The translations under genes and the position numbers were made by a program. Under the pieces are notes generated by a model that was given only the letters and a program-made list of their open reading frames with translations, did not search any database and had not been told where the DNA came from. A stretch of DNA of 64,000 nt from Actinomycetota bacterium (GTDB lineage Bacteria; Actinomycetota; CADDZG01; JAHWKV01; JAOPZY01), in contig DASTWV010000040.1 in assembly GCA_035765775.1 (NCBI GenBank), positions 62,001 to 126,000 on the forward strand, given 5' to 3'. Positions 34,313 to 41,191 of the stretch are shown here, piece by piece (positions within the stretch are counted from its first letter, which is position 1; each line of letters starts with the position of its first letter).

Positions 34313-35206
34313 TCAGAGCGCGACCGCGGCGGCGGTGGCGTCGTCGCCGCTGTGGGCTCCAGCGTCCGACAGCCAGCCCGGAAGCATCTCGCCCAGCGCC
34401 GCCAGCCCTTCCTTCCCGACGACCTCCCGCACCCCGGCGCCCACCTCCAGGAAGCCCTCGTCGTCGATGAAGGCGTTCTTCAGCCCGTCGGTGGCCAGGA
34501 GCGCGACCGCCGGGATGGGCTCCGCCGGGCGCCACAGCCCGTAGCGGAAGTCCTGCTCGGCCCCGGGTAAGCAGAGCGAGGTTGTGGCCCCGCCCTGGAG
34601 CCGGTCGTCACCGGGTACCGGCAGCACCGTCCCGGCCGCCGAGGTCACCAGGATGTCGCCGTCACCCACCTGGAGGAAGAAGGCGGTGGGGCCGGCCACC
34701 AGGGCGATGAGCAGCGTGGCCCCGTAGGCCACCTCCGGCCGCTCCTCCACCTCCCCCCGGAAACCCGGGCCCATGTGCTCGTCGACCGCAGCCAGCTCCT
34801 CCTCCTGGAACGGGCGCCGCTCCACATCCGCCAGCACCAGGGCGGTCCAGGCCCGGACCACCGCTTCCGCCATCGGGGCGAGGAACTCCTCGGGATCGAG
34901 AGCGGGATCGCCGCCCGGATCGAAGGCGGGCAGGCGCTCGGCGCCCTCCCGCACCGCCGTGGCCACCGCCAGTGCCGAGCCCGTCTGGCTCCGGAAGTGC
35001 AGGCGTGCCCCGTGACCGTCCGACACCGCCACCACCAGCCGGTCGCCCGAGCCCGACTCGGGGAACCAGGCCAGCGCGTCCTGGTTGGGCAGCCCGTCCC
35101 GCACGTGCGCCGGGCCCAGCACGGAGGCGCCCACCACCCGGAGCGCGCTCCGCCCCGACGGCGGCCCGGCCGGGAACCCGTTGGGGGGACCACTCATCGA
35201 CGTCAT
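34313..35206 (-). CDS. PP2C-family protein phosphatase
   Basis: 297 aa. PPM-type serine/threonine phosphatase motifs: [19 protein letters not shown] (metal-binding Asp and the DGHG motif), [34 protein letters not shown], and the C-terminal [12 protein letters not shown] with a metal aspartate. All catalytic positions are present. It overlaps the 3' end of ruvB by four bases, so it is probably cotranscribed with ruvCAB. No cognate kinase is in the window. Confidence 0.85.
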
Positions 35207-36246
35207 AGAAGGCGGTCCGCGGCATACCCGGGTTCTGCGCCGTCGTACGTCGCCAGCCCCAGATGCTCGTAGGCCGTCAGCGTCGCCAACCGCCCCCGGG
35301 GCGTGCGCTGGAGGAACCCCTTGCGCAGCAGGTAGGGCTCGTAGACATCCTCGATGGTCTCGGGCTCCTCTCCCACCGCCACCGCCAGGGTGCTGAGCCC
35401 CACCGGCCGGCCCCGGAAGCGCTGGGTGAGGGCCTCCAGGATGGCAATGTCCACCTTGTCGAGGCCCTCGACGTCCACCTGGAACAGGTCGAGGGCGTCC
35501 TGGGCCACATCGAGGGCGATCACCCCCGCCGCCCGCACCTGGGCGTAGTCCCGCACCCGGCGCAGGAGCCGGTTGGCGATGCGGGGCGTCCCGCGGGCAC
35601 GGCTGGCGATCTCTTCCGACGCCTCCCGGTCGATCTCGATCTCCAGGATCGCCGCCGAGCGGCGCACCACGTGCGCCAGCTCCTCCGGTTCGTAGTAGTC
35701 CAGCCGCCCGATGAAGCCGAACCGGTCCCGCAGCGGCGAGGTCAGCATCCCGGTGCGGGTGGTGGCCCCGATCAGGGTGAAGCGGGGGACCTCGACCCGG
35801 ATCGAGCGGGCGGAGGGCCCCTTGCCGATGACGATGTCCAGCCGGAAGTCCTCCATCGCCGGATAGAGCACCTCCTCGACGGTGCGGGCGAGGCGGTGGA
35901 TCTCGTCGATGAACAGCACGTCGCGGTCCTCGAGGTTGGTGAGGATGGCGGCCAGGTCGCCCGCCCGCTCGATCACCGGGCCGGAGGTGACGCTGAAGCC
36001 GACGCCCAACTCGGAGGCCACGATGTGTGCCAGCGTGGTCTTGCCCAGACCCGGGCTACCGGCAAACAGGAGGTGGTCCGCCGCCTCGCCCCGGGCCTTC
36101 GCGGCGTCGAGGATGATCGACAGGTGCTCCTTGGTGGAGGTCTGGCCCACGAAATCGCTCAGCGTCCGGGGCCGCAGCGACCGCTCGATCTCCTGGTCGT
36201 CGATGCTGGCGTCAGGGGCCAACATCCGCCCGGCGGCGTCGATCAC
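35203..36246 (-). CDS. ruvB: Holliday junction branch migration ATPase RuvB
   Basis: 347 aa, GTG start at 36246 overlapping the ruvA stop. AAA+ motor: Walker [16 protein letters not shown], Walker [11 protein letters not shown], sensor 1 [12 protein letters not shown], the arginine-finger region [13 protein letters not shown], and sensor 2 [17 protein letters not shown]. The winged-helix C-terminus ([12 protein letters not shown] ... [15 protein letters not shown]) is standard. Works with RuvA and RuvC in recombination repair. Confidence 0.97.
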
Positions 36247-36854
36247 CGTGTCCCAGCCCCGGTCCCGGCACTGGCGCCGGCACTGGCGCCGGCCAGCATC
36301 TTGAGGGCGGCCCGCACCATGGCCTCCACGGTGGCACCCGGGGTGGCGACCTCCTCGATGACCCCGCGCAGCTCCGCCGGCGTGTAGCCCAGCCCGGTGA
36401 GCGCCGCACGCACCTCGGCCACCGCGGCGCTGGGCACCGACGGCTCGACCGCCACCACCGCCAGCCGGTCGCGCAACTCCAGCAGCATGCGCTGGGCCCC
36501 CCGCTTCCCGACGCCGGGCACCGAGGTCAGAGCATCCAGGTCCCCGGTAGCCACCGCCCGGCGGAGCTCGTCGGGGTCCAGTACCGAGAGCACCGCCACG
36601 GCGAGCTTCGGCCCGACCCCGGTGACCCCCAGGAGGGTCTGGAAGACCTCCCGCTGGTCGGCGGTCCGGAAGCCGTACAGGGTGAGGGCGTCCTCCCGGA
36701 CCGCGAGATGGGTGAGGAGCCGGGCGGGCTGGCCCTTCACCAGCCCGGCGAGCACGGGGCCGGGCGCGTACACCAGGTAGCCGACCCCGCCCACCTCCAC
36801 CACCGCGGCGGCGCCGGTGACCTCAGCCACCACGCCGTTGAGCGAGGCGATCAC
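36243..36854 (-). CDS. ruvA: Holliday junction DNA helicase subunit RuvA
   Basis: 203 aa, GTG start at 36854 overlapping the ruvC stop (GTGA). OB-fold N-terminus ([22 protein letters not shown]), tandem helix-hairpin-helix region ([32 protein letters not shown]), and domain III contacting RuvB ([20 protein letters not shown]). The C-terminal [15 protein letters not shown] derives from a 12-bp duplication. Tetramers recognise the junction and load RuvB. Confidence 0.96.
36267..36290. repeat. 12-bp perfect tandem duplication at the 3' end of ruvA
   Basis: ggcactggcgcc twice, extending RuvA by Ala/Gly/Thr/Ser residues just before its stop codon. Confidence 0.9.
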
Positions 36855-37357
36855 GCCGGTCTCCGGGCAGCCGCCGCCAGGCCCGCCAGCTTGCGGGAGT
36901 GGCAGTGGCAGATGGCGACGGCCAGGGCGTCGGCGGCGTCGGGCGTGGCGGTTTGCGGATCCCCCCGCAGGAGGCGCTTGACCATAAAGCTGACCTGCTC
37001 CTTGGTGGCACTGCCGGTGCCCACCACCGCCATCTTCACCTGGAGGGGGGCGTAGTCGAAGACCGGGAGGTCGCAGCAGGCGGCGGTCAGCAGGGCCACT
37101 CCGGACGCCTGCGCCACCGGGATCACCGTCTGCGCATTCATCTTGTGGAAGATCCGCTCGATCGCCACCACGTCGGGCGCCCAGCGGGCGAACGCGGCCT
37201 CGAGGCCATCCCGGATGGCCCGCAGGCGCTGGGGCACCGGGTCCTCCGGCCGGGTGACGAGGGTGTCGCAGCCGATTGCCTGCAGCCGGTTGCCCTCCTG
37301 GAGGACCAGCCCAATCCCCATCCGGGTCAGGCCGGGGTCGATTCCGAGAACCCGCAT
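36851..37357 (-). CDS. ruvC: Holliday junction resolvase RuvC
   Basis: 168 aa, ATG 37357. RNase H-fold nuclease with catalytic acids in MRVLGIDPGLTRMG (D7), AIERIFH (Glu, about 67) and DAADALAVAICH near the end (two aspartates). QVKMAVVGTGSATKEQV is the DNA-binding region. First gene of ruvC-ruvA-ruvB-PP2C. A TATGAT -10-like element at 37402-37407 and a LexA-like box at 37385-37396 lie just upstream, consistent with damage induction. Confidence 0.95.
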   Translation of the reverse strand: MRVLGIDPGLTRMGIGLVLQEGNRLQAIGCDTLVTRPEDPVPQRLRAIRDGLEAAFARWAPDVVAIERIFHKMNAQTVIPVAQASGVALLTAACCDLPVFDYAPLQVKMAVVGTGSATKEQVSFMVKRLLRGDPQTATPDAADALAVAICHCHSRKLAGLAAAARRPA

Positions 37358-37384
37358 CGTGCGTTTCCTTCACGAAGCAAAATC

Positions 37385-37396
37385 GAACGGTTGTTT
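37385..37396 (-). promoter_or_regulatory. LexA-like (SOS) box upstream of ruvC
   Basis: GAAC-GGTT-GTTT, one mismatch from the GAAC-N4-GTTC core, 27 bp before the ruvC start and just downstream of TATGAT (37402-37407), so it would cover the transcription start. ruv genes are classical SOS members. Confidence 0.6.
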
Positions 37397-37430
37397 GCAG
37401 GATCATACCGAGACCCACCGACATCGCCTT

Positions 37431-37461
37431 GGATTGTGGGTGGATTGCGGGTGGATTGTGG
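37431..37461. repeat. 11-bp tandem repeat x2.8 between ruvC and the L,D-transpeptidase
   Basis: ggattgtgggt, ggattgcgggt, ggattgtgg in direct succession in the 212-bp divergent intergenic region. The unit is not a multiple of three, consistent with its non-coding place. Confidence 0.85.
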
Positions 37462-37569
37462 AAGCCTCGGCCCGGGTAACTCCAGGACCCATCAAGTTGC
37501 CATCGCCGAGTCCCGATAAGATCCTCACACCGATCCGCACGGTGCTTGCTCCCGCGGAGGCCAACACAT

Positions 37570-38400
37570 ATGAGAAGCCGGCTGTTCTACCGCCTCGCGA
37601 ACAGTTCACCCCTGGCGCAGGCCGCCGCGATCTTCTGCGTGCTCATCGTGCTCGTCGGGCTGTTCGAGGCGGACAACTACTTGTTCGGCGCCAAGCCGAA
37701 GCATGTCGCGAAGGCGGTGGCCTCCCCCAGCCCATCGCCGTCGCCCAGCCCCGCCCCCACCGAAGCCCCGAGCCCGGCGCCCAGCACTGGGGTGCCCATC
37801 CCGGTCACCTCGACGGTGGCCACCGCCGGCGATGCGTTCGTGGCCGCCCGCTCCGAGCCCAGCACCAAGGGGCGCCTGATTGAGAACGTGGATGCCCACA
37901 ACCTGCTCGGCCAGTCCACCGTGTTCCTCGTGGTCGGCCAGCAGCCGGGCTGGTACCAGGTATTGCTGCAGAAGATCCCCAACGGGACCACCGCGTGGGT
38001 GTCCGCCAGCCAGGTCACCATCAGCGTGGTCAACGACTTCATCCTGGCCCACCTGTCCACCTACAAGTTGGAGCATTACAACTCCGGCAAGCTCGTGGGC
38101 ACGTACTCCATGGCCATCGGGGCCAGCAAGACGCCCACGCCCACCGGCATGTTCTACCTCTGGGGCCTGCAGACGGGCGTCCCGCCGCCCTACACGCCGG
38201 CGATCTTCGCCCTGTCGGCGCTGTCGGAAACCCTCACCAACTGGCCCTATGGCGGCATCGTCGGGATCCACGGCTGGTCGGACTCGAGCGTGGAGGGCAA
38301 AGCGGTCTCCAACGGCTGCCTGCGCCTCACCGAGACCGACGCCCAGCGGCTGGTGAACGCCAACCTGCCCCTGGGCACGCCGGTCCAGATCGTCGCCTGA
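37570..38400 (+). CDS. L,D-transpeptidase (YkuD domain) with SH3-like domain
   Basis: 276 aa from ATG 37570, preceded by GGAGG. Transmembrane/signal anchor at about 13-33, a Ser-Pro repeat linker, an SH3-like cell-wall-binding module (about 85-150, FVAARSEPSTKGRLIENV ... GWYQVLL), then the YkuD catalytic domain. The catalytic signature GIHGWSDSS ... SNGCLRLTETDAQRL has the histidine and cysteine. The enzyme forms 3-3 cross-links or attaches proteins to peptidoglycan and is carbapenem- rather than penicillin-sensitive as a family. Monocistronic; divergent from ruvC. Confidence 0.93.
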   Translation: MRSRLFYRLANSSPLAQAAAIFCVLIVLVGLFEADNYLFGAKPKHVAKAVASPSPSPSPSPAPTEAPSPAPSTGVPIPVTSTVATAGDAFVAARSEPSTKGRLIENVDAHNLLGQSTVFLVVGQQPGWYQVLLQKIPNGTTAWVSASQVTISVVNDFILAHLSTYKLEHYNSGKLVGTYSMAIGASKTPTPTGMFYLWGLQTGVPPPYTPAIFALSALSETLTNWPYGGIVGIHGWSDSSVEGKAVSNGCLRLTETDAQRLVNANLPLGTPVQIVA

Positions 38401-38446
38401 TCGATCCCAGATTCCAGGTTTCCCGTTCGGTTTCCGGCACGAAAAA

Positions 38447-38469
38447 GGGCCGGGAACAGATCCCGGCCC
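38447..38469 (-). terminator. Rho-independent terminator after the 32-aa membrane peptide gene
   Basis: Perfect 9-bp stem GGGCCGGGA / TCCCGGCCC with a five-base loop, followed on the minus strand by TTTTT (complement of 38442-38446). It lies 23 bp past the stop of the small gene at 38492. It may also slow plus-strand transcription from the L,D-transpeptidase. Confidence 0.8.
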
Positions 38470-38491
38470 CTCGGAGTACTCCTGGGAAGTA

Positions 38492-38590
38492 CTACTTCTT
38501 GGCGCCGACCATACCCCAGACGTAGCTGGCCACAATGCCGACCAGGCCAACGCCGGCGAGGATCAATGCAAACGCGCTCAGACCAGTCAT
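38492..38590 (-). CDS. 32-aa single-pass membrane peptide
   Basis: Not a family I can name. ATG 38590 to TAG 38492 encodes MTGLSAFALILAGVGLVGI, continuing VASYVWGMVGAKK: one hydrophobic helix (about residues 6-27) with a Lys-Lys C-terminus. Support for a real gene: GGGAGGAAG about six to eight bases before the ATG, a perfect intrinsic terminator immediately after, and isolation between genes of other operons. The helix contains small-xxx-small spacings (AGVGLVG) that favour helix packing. It could be a stress-induced membrane peptide, a type I toxin-like peptide, or a subunit of a membrane complex. Confidence 0.7.
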   Translation of the reverse strand: MTGLSAFALILAGVGLVGIVASYVWGMVGAKK

Positions 38591-38919
38591 CGTTCCGCTT
38601 CCTCCCACTCTGTGGCCCATATGAATTCCGAATGAATTCGGGGGCTACTGCCTCATGTAGTAGTTCAATCGGCATAACGAGGGGGAACGCTAAACGGCCT
38701 CTTTTACCTAGCCCGGGCTCCCCCGAATGGTGGAGGAGCGCCCCGGGGTGTCGCAGGCCCCGGTGGCCTAGTCCCGGGCGCTTGGGGGACCGCTGGGCCA
38801 TACCTGCACGCGTGGTACAGCCAGGGGATGTACTACTCCACCAACTATCCCGGCGGAGCGGCAATGTTCACGGGTCGCCGGGTGAATCAGTGTGAAGCAC
38901 GGGCACACTCGGCCAGGCT
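38591..38919. other. 329-bp non-coding region upstream of the 32-aa gene
   Basis: No protein gene is supported. It should contain the promoter and leader of the 32-aa peptide (minus strand) and the end of the yebC transcript. Visible elements are AGCCCGGGCT (palindrome, 38709-38718), the near-direct repeats GAATTC around 38625-38640, and nested hairpins near the yebC end (AGTGTG/CACACT and TGAAGC/GCTTCA). A structured leader is possible, but I could not match a known riboswitch. Confidence 0.5.
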
Positions 38920-39669
38920 TCAGCCGGCCAGCTCCGCCATGACGTCGTCGGGCACGTCGAAGTTGGCGTGCACCTCCTGCACGTCGTCCAGATCCTCCAG
39001 GGCGTCCAGCAGGCGCAGCACCGGGGGCGCTCCCTCCCGGTCCAGCTCGATCACCGTCGAGGGCTCCATCGTGATCTGGGCCTCCTCGATCGGCAGCCCC
39101 TCCGCCTCGATCGCCTGGCGCAGCGTCTCCAGGTCGTTCGGGCCGGTGGTCACCTGCCAGGTGTCGCCCTGATCCTTCAGGTCCTCGGCGCCCGCCGCCA
39201 GGGCGACGCCCATCAGGTCATCCTCGGACACCGCGTCCTTGGGGACCAGCACCACGCCCCGCTTGGTGAACATCCACGACACCGCCCCCGGCTCGGCTAG
39301 CGAGCTGCCGTACTTGGTGAAGATCCGGCGGACGTCGGCGGCGGCGCGGTTGCGGTTGTCGGTCAGGACCTCCACCAGGACGGCGACCCCACCCGGGGCG
39401 TAGCCCTCGTAGATCAGGGTCTCGTAGGTGACGCCCTCCAACTCCCCGGTGCCCCGCTTGATCGCCCGCTCGATGGTGTCGGTGGGGATGCTGTCGGCCC
39501 GGGCGCGGGAGACCGCGTCGGCCAGGGTGGGGTTGGCGTCCATTTTGCCCCCGCCCTCGCGGGCGGCCACCTCGATGGCCCGCAGCCGCTTGGCGAACTG
39601 CTTGCCCCGGCGGGCGTCGATGATCGCCTTCTTGTGCTTGATCCCCGCCCACTTCGAATGGCCCGACAT
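38920..39669 (-). CDS. yebC: YebC/TACO1-family translational regulator
   Basis: 249 aa. MSGHSKWAGIKHKKAIIDARRGKQFAKRLRAIEVAAREGG at the N-terminus is near-invariant in the family, followed by RARADSIPTDTIERAIKRGTGE, YEGYAPGGVAVLVEVLTDNRNR and the three-domain layout. Family members have been described as DNA-binding regulators and, more recently, as ribosome factors relieving stalls at proline-rich stretches. The latter would matter in this proline-rich proteome (inference). The start overlaps the pdxT stop by one base. Confidence 0.96.
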   Translation of the reverse strand: MSGHSKWAGIKHKKAIIDARRGKQFAKRLRAIEVAAREGGGKMDANPTLADAVSRARADSIPTDTIERAIKRGTGELEGVTYETLIYEGYAPGGVAVLVEVLTDNRNRAAADVRRIFTKYGSSLAEPGAVSWMFTKRGVVLVPKDAVSEDDLMGVALAAGAEDLKDQGDTWQVTTGPNDLETLRQAIEAEGLPIEEAQITMEPSTVIELDREGAPPVLRLLDALEDLDDVQEVHANFDVPDDVMAELAG

Positions 39670-40247
39670 CAGGCTCCTCCCCGTCCCGTCGTGTCGAGAA
39701 CGCTGTCGAGGAAGTACCGGTGCAGCACCGGCGTCCCCGTGATCTCCGGGTGGAACGCGAGGCCCAGGATAGCCCCGGAGCGCACGACCACGGGGTGCCC
39801 GTCCCATGTGGCCAGCACCTCGACGCCCTCCCCGGTCGCCTCGAACACGGGCGCCCGGATGAAGGCCGCCCGCACCCGGCCGACCCCGGCGACGTCCAGG
39901 TCCGCCTCGAAGGAGTCCCGCTGCGTGCCATAGGCGTTGCGGGTGACCGTGATGTCCAGCACCCCGAGCGGCGTCTCCCCGTCGGAGACCCTGGTGGCGA
40001 GGATGATCGCCCCGGCGCAGGTCGCCAGCACCGCCATGCCGCCCTGGATCCGCTTGACTAGGGGGTCGCGCAGCTCGTAGCGGTCGATGAGCTTGAGCAG
40101 GGTGGTGGACTCGCCGCCCGGGAGCACCAGCCCGTCCACCGCCTCCAGCTCGGCGGCGGTGCGCACCTCCCGGGGCTCGATCCCGCAGTCCCTCAGTGCC
40201 CGGCGGTGCTCGGCGACGTCGCCCTGCAGGGCGAGGATACCCACCAC
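39669..40247 (-). CDS. pdxT: Pyridoxal 5'-phosphate synthase glutaminase subunit PdxT
   Basis: 192 aa. Class I glutamine amidotransferase supplying ammonia to PdxS. GILALQGDVAEH, LVLPGGESTTLLKLI (oxyanion region), the nucleophile in VLATCAGAIILA, and the His-Glu pair in LAFHPEITG. GTG 40247 is used; a second GTG follows immediately. It comes 56 bp after pdxS, as in most DXP-independent vitamin B6 operons. Confidence 0.95.
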   Translation of the reverse strand: MVGILALQGDVAEHRRALRDCGIEPREVRTAAELEAVDGLVLPGGESTTLLKLIDRYELRDPLVKRIQGGMAVLATCAGAIILATRVSDGETPLGVLDITVTRNAYGTQRDSFEADLDVAGVGRVRAAFIRAPVFEATGEGVEVLATWDGHPVVVRSGAILGLAFHPEITGTPVLHRYFLDSVLDTTGRGGA

Positions 40248-40303
40248 CTACATCCGCCCCGCTTCCGGCTCCGCTCTCGGCGAGCGAGCTCGCCCCACGG
40301 GCG

Positions 40304-41191
40304 CTACCACCCTCGGGGCGCCAGCCGCTCCTCCGCCGGGATCTCCCTGAGGTCCATGCCGCGCATCGGCTCGCCGAGCCCGCGGGAGACCCGGGCCACC
40401 ACCTCGGGGTCCTGGTAGTAGGTGGTGGCCTCGACGACGGCCCGGGCGGTGCGGGCCGGATCGGCGGCCTTGAAGATGCCCGAGCCCACAAAGACGCCTT
40501 CGGCCCCGAGTTGCATCACCAGGGCGGCATCGGCCGGCGTGGCGATCCCCCCGGCGCAGAAGGTCACCACCGGCAGCCGACCGGACTGGGCGACGTCCCG
40601 CACCAGCTCGTAGGGAGCGCCCAGCTCCTTGGCCTCGGTCATGAGCTCCTCGGGGGGAACGGCCTGCAGCCGGCGGATGGTGTCCCCGATCGAGCGCAGG
40701 TGACGTACCGCCTCCACCACGTTGCCGGTGCCCGCCTCGCCCTTGGAGCGGATCATGGCGGCGCCCTCGCCGATGCGGCGCAGCGCCTCGCCCAGGTTGG
40801 TGGCCCCGCACACGAAGGGCACGGTGTACGCCCACTTGTCCACGTGGTAGCGCTCGTCGGCCGGGGTGAGGACCTCGGATTCATCAATGAAGTCGACCCC
40901 GAGGCTCTGCAGCACCTGCGCCTCGGCGAAGTGGCCGATGCGGCACTTGGCCATGACCGGGATGGTCACGGCCTCCTGGATCTCGGTGATCTTGTTGGGA
41001 TCGGCCATGCGGGCGACGCCCCCGTCCCGGCGGATGTCGGCCGGGACCCGCTCGAGGGCCATGACTGCGACCGCCCCCGCCTCCTGGGCGATGGCCGCCT
41101 GCTCGGCGGTGGTGACGTCCATGATGACCCCGCCCTTGAGCATCTCGGCGAGGCCGCGCTTGATGCGCACGGTTCCGTGTTCGACTGCCAT
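40304..41191 (-). CDS. pdxS: Pyridoxal 5'-phosphate synthase subunit PdxS
   Basis: 295 aa TIM-barrel that condenses ribose 5-phosphate, glyceraldehyde 3-phosphate and ammonia into [42 protein letters not shown] (catalytic Lys), [10 protein letters not shown], and [11 protein letters not shown] (second Lys) are intact. This gives the organism de novo B6 synthesis; the PLP-binding YggS elsewhere in the window would buffer the product. Confidence 0.97.

Follow-up and report, generated by a model that had tools for sequence, protein, structure and literature searches.

A conserved gene for a 32-residue predicted membrane peptide, found in opposite orientations in two genera of one actinobacterial family

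We describe a small gene on the minus strand of a 64-kb stretch of actinobacterial DNA, the whole of which was analysed and is called the window here. Its open reading frame (ORF) encodes a hydrophobic peptide, lies between a conserved leader and an intrinsic terminator, and is under purifying selection as judged from one pair of sequences. We put at roughly one half the probability that the product works through helix packing as a small membrane protein with an accessory or regulatory role. Genes of this kind are already known; as a family, this one matched nothing in the libraries that we searched. The features of the unit, with the evidence for each, are as follows:

38492-38590, minus strand: ORF of 32 amino acids with one predicted transmembrane helix and a C-terminal Lys-Lys (translation, homologue, dN/dS, helix model)
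38598-38606, minus strand: Shine-Dalgarno sequence GGGAGGAAG, separated by 7 nt from the ATG; in the homologue GGGGGAGAC is found at equal spacing
38442-38469, minus strand: intrinsic terminator with a 9-bp perfect stem, a 5-nt loop and TTTTT (inverted repeat, folding); the hairpin is also present in the homologue (L002/L021)
38591-38738, minus strand: conserved leader of about 140 nt (local alignment with the leader of the homologue)
38690-38711, minus strand: longest and most conserved leader block, CTAGGTAAAAGAGGCCGTTTAG, consensus CTAGGTAAAAnnnGCCGTTYAG (exact once in its own genome and once in genome G001)
38651-38666, minus strand: second conserved leader block, GAACTACTACATGAGG, which reads GAAGTAGTACGTGAGG in the homologue (leader alignment)
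38718-38735, minus strand: leader hairpin CTCCnCC/GGGGGAG, for which an alternative pairing with the Shine-Dalgarno sequence is possible (present in both leaders)

The 99-bp ORF translates as MTGLSAFALILAGVGLVGIVASYVWGMVGAKK followed by a stop codon, in agreement with the first-pass annotation, which had described a 32-residue hydrophobic peptide with a single helix and a Lys-Lys end. The strong ribosome site and the 9-bp perfect stem plus T-tract 3' of the stop codon that it had claimed are likewise present at the positions listed. An alternative in-frame ATG upstream would give a product of 42 amino acids; it is absent from the homologue, which makes the 32-amino-acid start the likelier one. 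Both hydropathy and a predicted model describe a single hydrophobic helix, which AlphaFold2, run on the single sequence, places at residues 4-31 with a mean pLDDT of 86.7. A Lys-Lys end is expected to be cytoplasmic by the positive-inside rule, and that of the peptide would be placed there. The small residues A12, G18, S22, G26 and A30 are identical in both homologues (n = 2 sequences). Within this set, G18-S22-G26-A30 forms in both peptides a small-xxx-small chain with i, i+4 spacing along one face of the helix, an analysis based on one pair of sequences. The ORF is single copy in a search of its own genome. When the whole window was scanned for the combination of a Shine-Dalgarno sequence, a hydrophobic ORF of 25-60 amino acids and a perfect-stem terminator, this ORF was the sole result, and the combination appeared in none of ten first-order Markov shuffles of the window.

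Among 61 genomes (its own and relatives), we found one clear homologue (E = 9e-10), in genome G001, which belongs to another genus of the same family. The homologue (L002/L021) and the peptide are 69% identical, with frame and stop codon kept, and share 12 consecutive residues, AGVGLVGIVASY, as well as the GAKK end. Of 26 nucleotide differences between the two ORFs, 16 are at third positions; by codon, 10 differences are synonymous and 10 non-synonymous. The NG86 estimates are 0.162 for dN and 1.48 for dS (dN/dS about 0.11), and in a neutral simulation such amino-acid identity without a stop codon arose in ~0.1% of cases (P about 0.001). The first-pass annotation had proposed checking for homologues with a conserved frame and for synteny; both checks favour the gene, the homologue occupying the same gene gap between yebC and an L,D-transpeptidase gene, though flipped. 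Its description of a stand-alone small gene thus holds, given a frame kept across two genera, synteny of the flanking genes and a terminator hairpin that is also conserved.

Conservation is narrow, as a homologue is found only in one family, in a single other genus. No further credible match to the peptide was detected in 24 genomes of the class, in 397 sampled genomes of the phylum, or in Pfam, NCBIfam, PHROGs, the PDB, phages, plasmids or viral contigs; Pfam and NCBIfam returned nothing except PEP-CTERM-type models with E values of 1 or worse. A degenerate peptide pattern matched once in GTDB 220, from which records of the window's own genome or of very near ones may be absent; this match, in a contig of Actinobacteria bacterium isolate RYN_267, has the same sequence as the G001 locus. 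Weak matches in other genomes (E > 0.005) lay inside longer open frames (74-993 amino acids) and were treated as chance.

The arms of the terminator stem lie at 38447-38455 and 38461-38469, followed by TTTTT on the minus strand. The 70-nt 3' region folds with an energy of -32.6 kcal/mol, compared with -21.7 ± 2.9 kcal/mol for shuffles (z = -3.7). In the homologue the hairpin persists with a different loop and one pair altered on both sides; the terminator alignment by itself is marginal relative to chance (25 of 500 shuffles reach its score). A stock terminator scan did not report this gene's terminator, probably through allowing G-U pairs to extend the stem into the T tract.

In the window the gene order is ruvB, ruvA and ruvC (minus strand), an L,D-transpeptidase gene (plus), the peptide gene (minus), and yebC, pdxT and pdxS (minus). 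G001 has the same genes in identical order and on identical strands, the peptide unit alone lying on the other strand; by BLAST the ORF is on the reversed strand with both flanks in register. The leader and the terminator hairpin are inverted together with the ORF, as one block between the same neighbours, which argues that the three make up one functional unit. The gene upstream of this unit differs between the two genomes, being yebC in one and the L,D-transpeptidase gene in the other, yet both keep the leader. Since the leader is kept while the upstream neighbour changes, the unit very likely has its own promoter, which probably lies within the conserved leader. A scan for a sigma-70-type promoter found none, a result that says little for a high-G+C genome. 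From the arrangement of the two loci, the unit would have been inverted in one genus after its appearance in the family. The inversion is given as assembled, and mis-assembly may be an alternative source of the flipped unit.

In the rest of the class, those yebC loci that extend far enough have yebC and then ruvC on the same strand; in several others the sequence stops short of ruvC or ruvC is not seen. The cluster pdxS-pdxT-yebC-ruvC-ruvA-ruvB is contiguous in same-order relatives (loci compared: window 35203-41191, L021, L025, L027, L028 and L032, of which L021 is that of the homologue), and in the class loci readable through the yebC-ruvC interval we detected neither a transpeptidase match nor a peptide ORF of similar make-up. 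The cluster of the window's family is split between yebC and ruvC by the oppositely oriented L,D-transpeptidase gene and the peptide unit. Because yebC is followed by ruvC in the readable loci elsewhere in the class, this pair is extra DNA seen in the family only. Each of the two family genomes has four matches of the L,D-transpeptidase type (window 37546-38400; L078, L084, L088), with scores similar pair by pair, and the remaining genomes of the class have between zero and three at the same threshold. At the homologous locus, where the peptide gene and yebC are convergent, the two are separated by a hairpin CCGCCCC...GGGGCGG (L021 5546-5565) that is perhaps a yebC terminator.

The gap between the peptide ORF and yebC is 329 nt, the length that the first-pass annotation had given for a possibly regulatory upstream region, and the suggestion of regulation gains support from the conservation of some 140 nt of it well above chance. 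The leader alignment scores 48, compared with 19.6 ± 3.1 for dinucleotide shuffles, of which the highest reaches 33 and 0 of 500 reach 48; same-strand alignment of the remaining intergenic DNA between the two genomes is at chance level. Other matches to CTAGGTAAAAnnnGCCGTTYAG occur in six genomes with 3 mismatches each, about as frequently as those to a reversed control. Both predicted leader folds bury the Shine-Dalgarno sequence by pairing it with the same upstream CUCC tract, which has GGGGGAG as an alternative partner in a local hairpin. This pairing energy is within the range expected from composition, being reached by 44% and 7.5% of shuffled leaders, and we therefore rejected occlusion of the ribosome site as a proven switch. 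A two-hairpin leader that hides or exposes the Shine-Dalgarno sequence is only a suggestion from the predicted folds. With the ribosome site buried in these folds, the high expression proposed in the first-pass annotation is no more than putative.

The leader and unit matched no Rfam family at the gathering threshold, and a known riboswitch was rejected on this basis; the best weak match, to SorX, scored 22 bits against a cut-off of 46.6 and lay mostly in the terminator. Nor does the leader appear to be a widespread element. Searches with blastn returned short fragments only, the one in G001 (L056) lying in an apparent atp operon. A covariance model built from two sequences and run on 297 genomes placed the two known leaders alone well above noise; five other matches scored 20-22 bits, and none of these was followed by a comparable peptide ORF.

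Under the reading that we favor, the peptide would insert in the cytoplasmic membrane as one helix, with the Lys-Lys end inside, and would pack against another membrane protein, or itself, through the small residues named above. Leader, ORF and terminator would be transcribed from the unit's own promoter, and the leader would probably adjust expression. Known small membrane proteins of similar length frequently serve as subunits, among them CydX, KdpF and CcmD (PMC10903887). Like the peptide, these proteins and AcrZ have about 25-50 amino acids, one transmembrane helix and few charged residues, but they sit with or bind a large complex, whereas the peptide gene has no nearby partner gene or sequence match. 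Its neighbours are the L,D-transpeptidase gene and yebC, with no partner operon among them, and the peptide matched no CydX-, KdpF- or CcoQ-type family profile in Pfam or NCBIfam. The candidates of the Pro-SMP finder (PMC10903887) share its profile of a short intergenic ORF with one helix, a Shine-Dalgarno sequence and conservation beyond the species; conservation of the peptide, in contrast, is confined to one family, and its unit is inverted between genera.

The main rival, which we regard as unlikely, is a type I toxin. In that case the small hydrophobic peptide would depolarise the membrane once released, and a structured leader together with an antisense RNA would otherwise keep it silent. 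Published type I systems pair a toxic short membrane peptide with an antisense RNA (PMC7667032; PMC3567139). The size and single helix of the peptide fit, as most type I toxins of E. coli have 18-51 amino acids (PMC7667032), and the conserved small residues would also fit a self-assembling pore or toxin. The unit is self-contained, and the burial of its ribosome site in both predicted folds resembles the structured tisB-like leaders (PMC3567139). DinQ, TisB and TimP are likewise short single-helix hydrophobic peptides with their own transcript and a long leader possibly hiding the Shine-Dalgarno sequence, features that are predicted on the peptide's side. Unlike them, the peptide is single copy and has no antisense gene found by consensus scans. 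Simple consensus scans, of which the one for terminators missed the gene's own terminator, found no terminator-like site or promoter on the opposite strand of the leader in either genome. No homologue occurs in plasmids or phages, and the pairing of the ribosome site is no stronger than in shuffled leaders. A bolder version, in which a family-specific, self-contained unit has flipped in place and its leader, of a new kind, acts as a switch whose two mutually exclusive hairpins hide or expose the ribosome site of a membrane-acting peptide, strikes us as highly doubtful.

A role of the peptide in the service of the adjacent L,D-transpeptidase or of the cell envelope, in which case both genes would have entered the family together, is improbable. 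The two do share the extra yebC-ruvC DNA in both genomes, and no transpeptidase match was found in the readable intervals of the class. However, they lie on opposite strands in the window and on the same strand in the relative, so they form no stable operon, and none of the three other L,D-transpeptidase copies per genome adjoins such a peptide; nor was one of the same make-up found beside yebC elsewhere. A small regulatory RNA as the main product, the ORF being of secondary importance or belonging to a dual-function RNA, would account for the terminator hairpin and for a leader conserved to a degree comparable with the ORF. We consider it a poor prospect given that the codon-position pattern and dN/dS mark selection on the peptide, and that the Rfam search yielded only the SorX match noted above. 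That the ORF arose by chance in an intergenic region is barely credible: it is short and has only one homologue, but the conserved frame and codon pattern disfavor chance, and shuffled windows lack its combination of signals.

The gene is a clean example of a small-protein gene from an actinobacterial lineage whose only relative known here is metagenome-assembled, and the family libraries tested hold no model for it. Beyond the autonomy of the unit, the peptide is a further orphan among small membrane proteins. The 7-mer GTAGTAC/GTACTAC has 4 copies in the window, 2 of them (38489 and 38830) within 350 nt around the peptide gene, and it occurs twice in the unit of the homologue (L021 5250-5430), one copy lying in the leader and the other at the stop codon.
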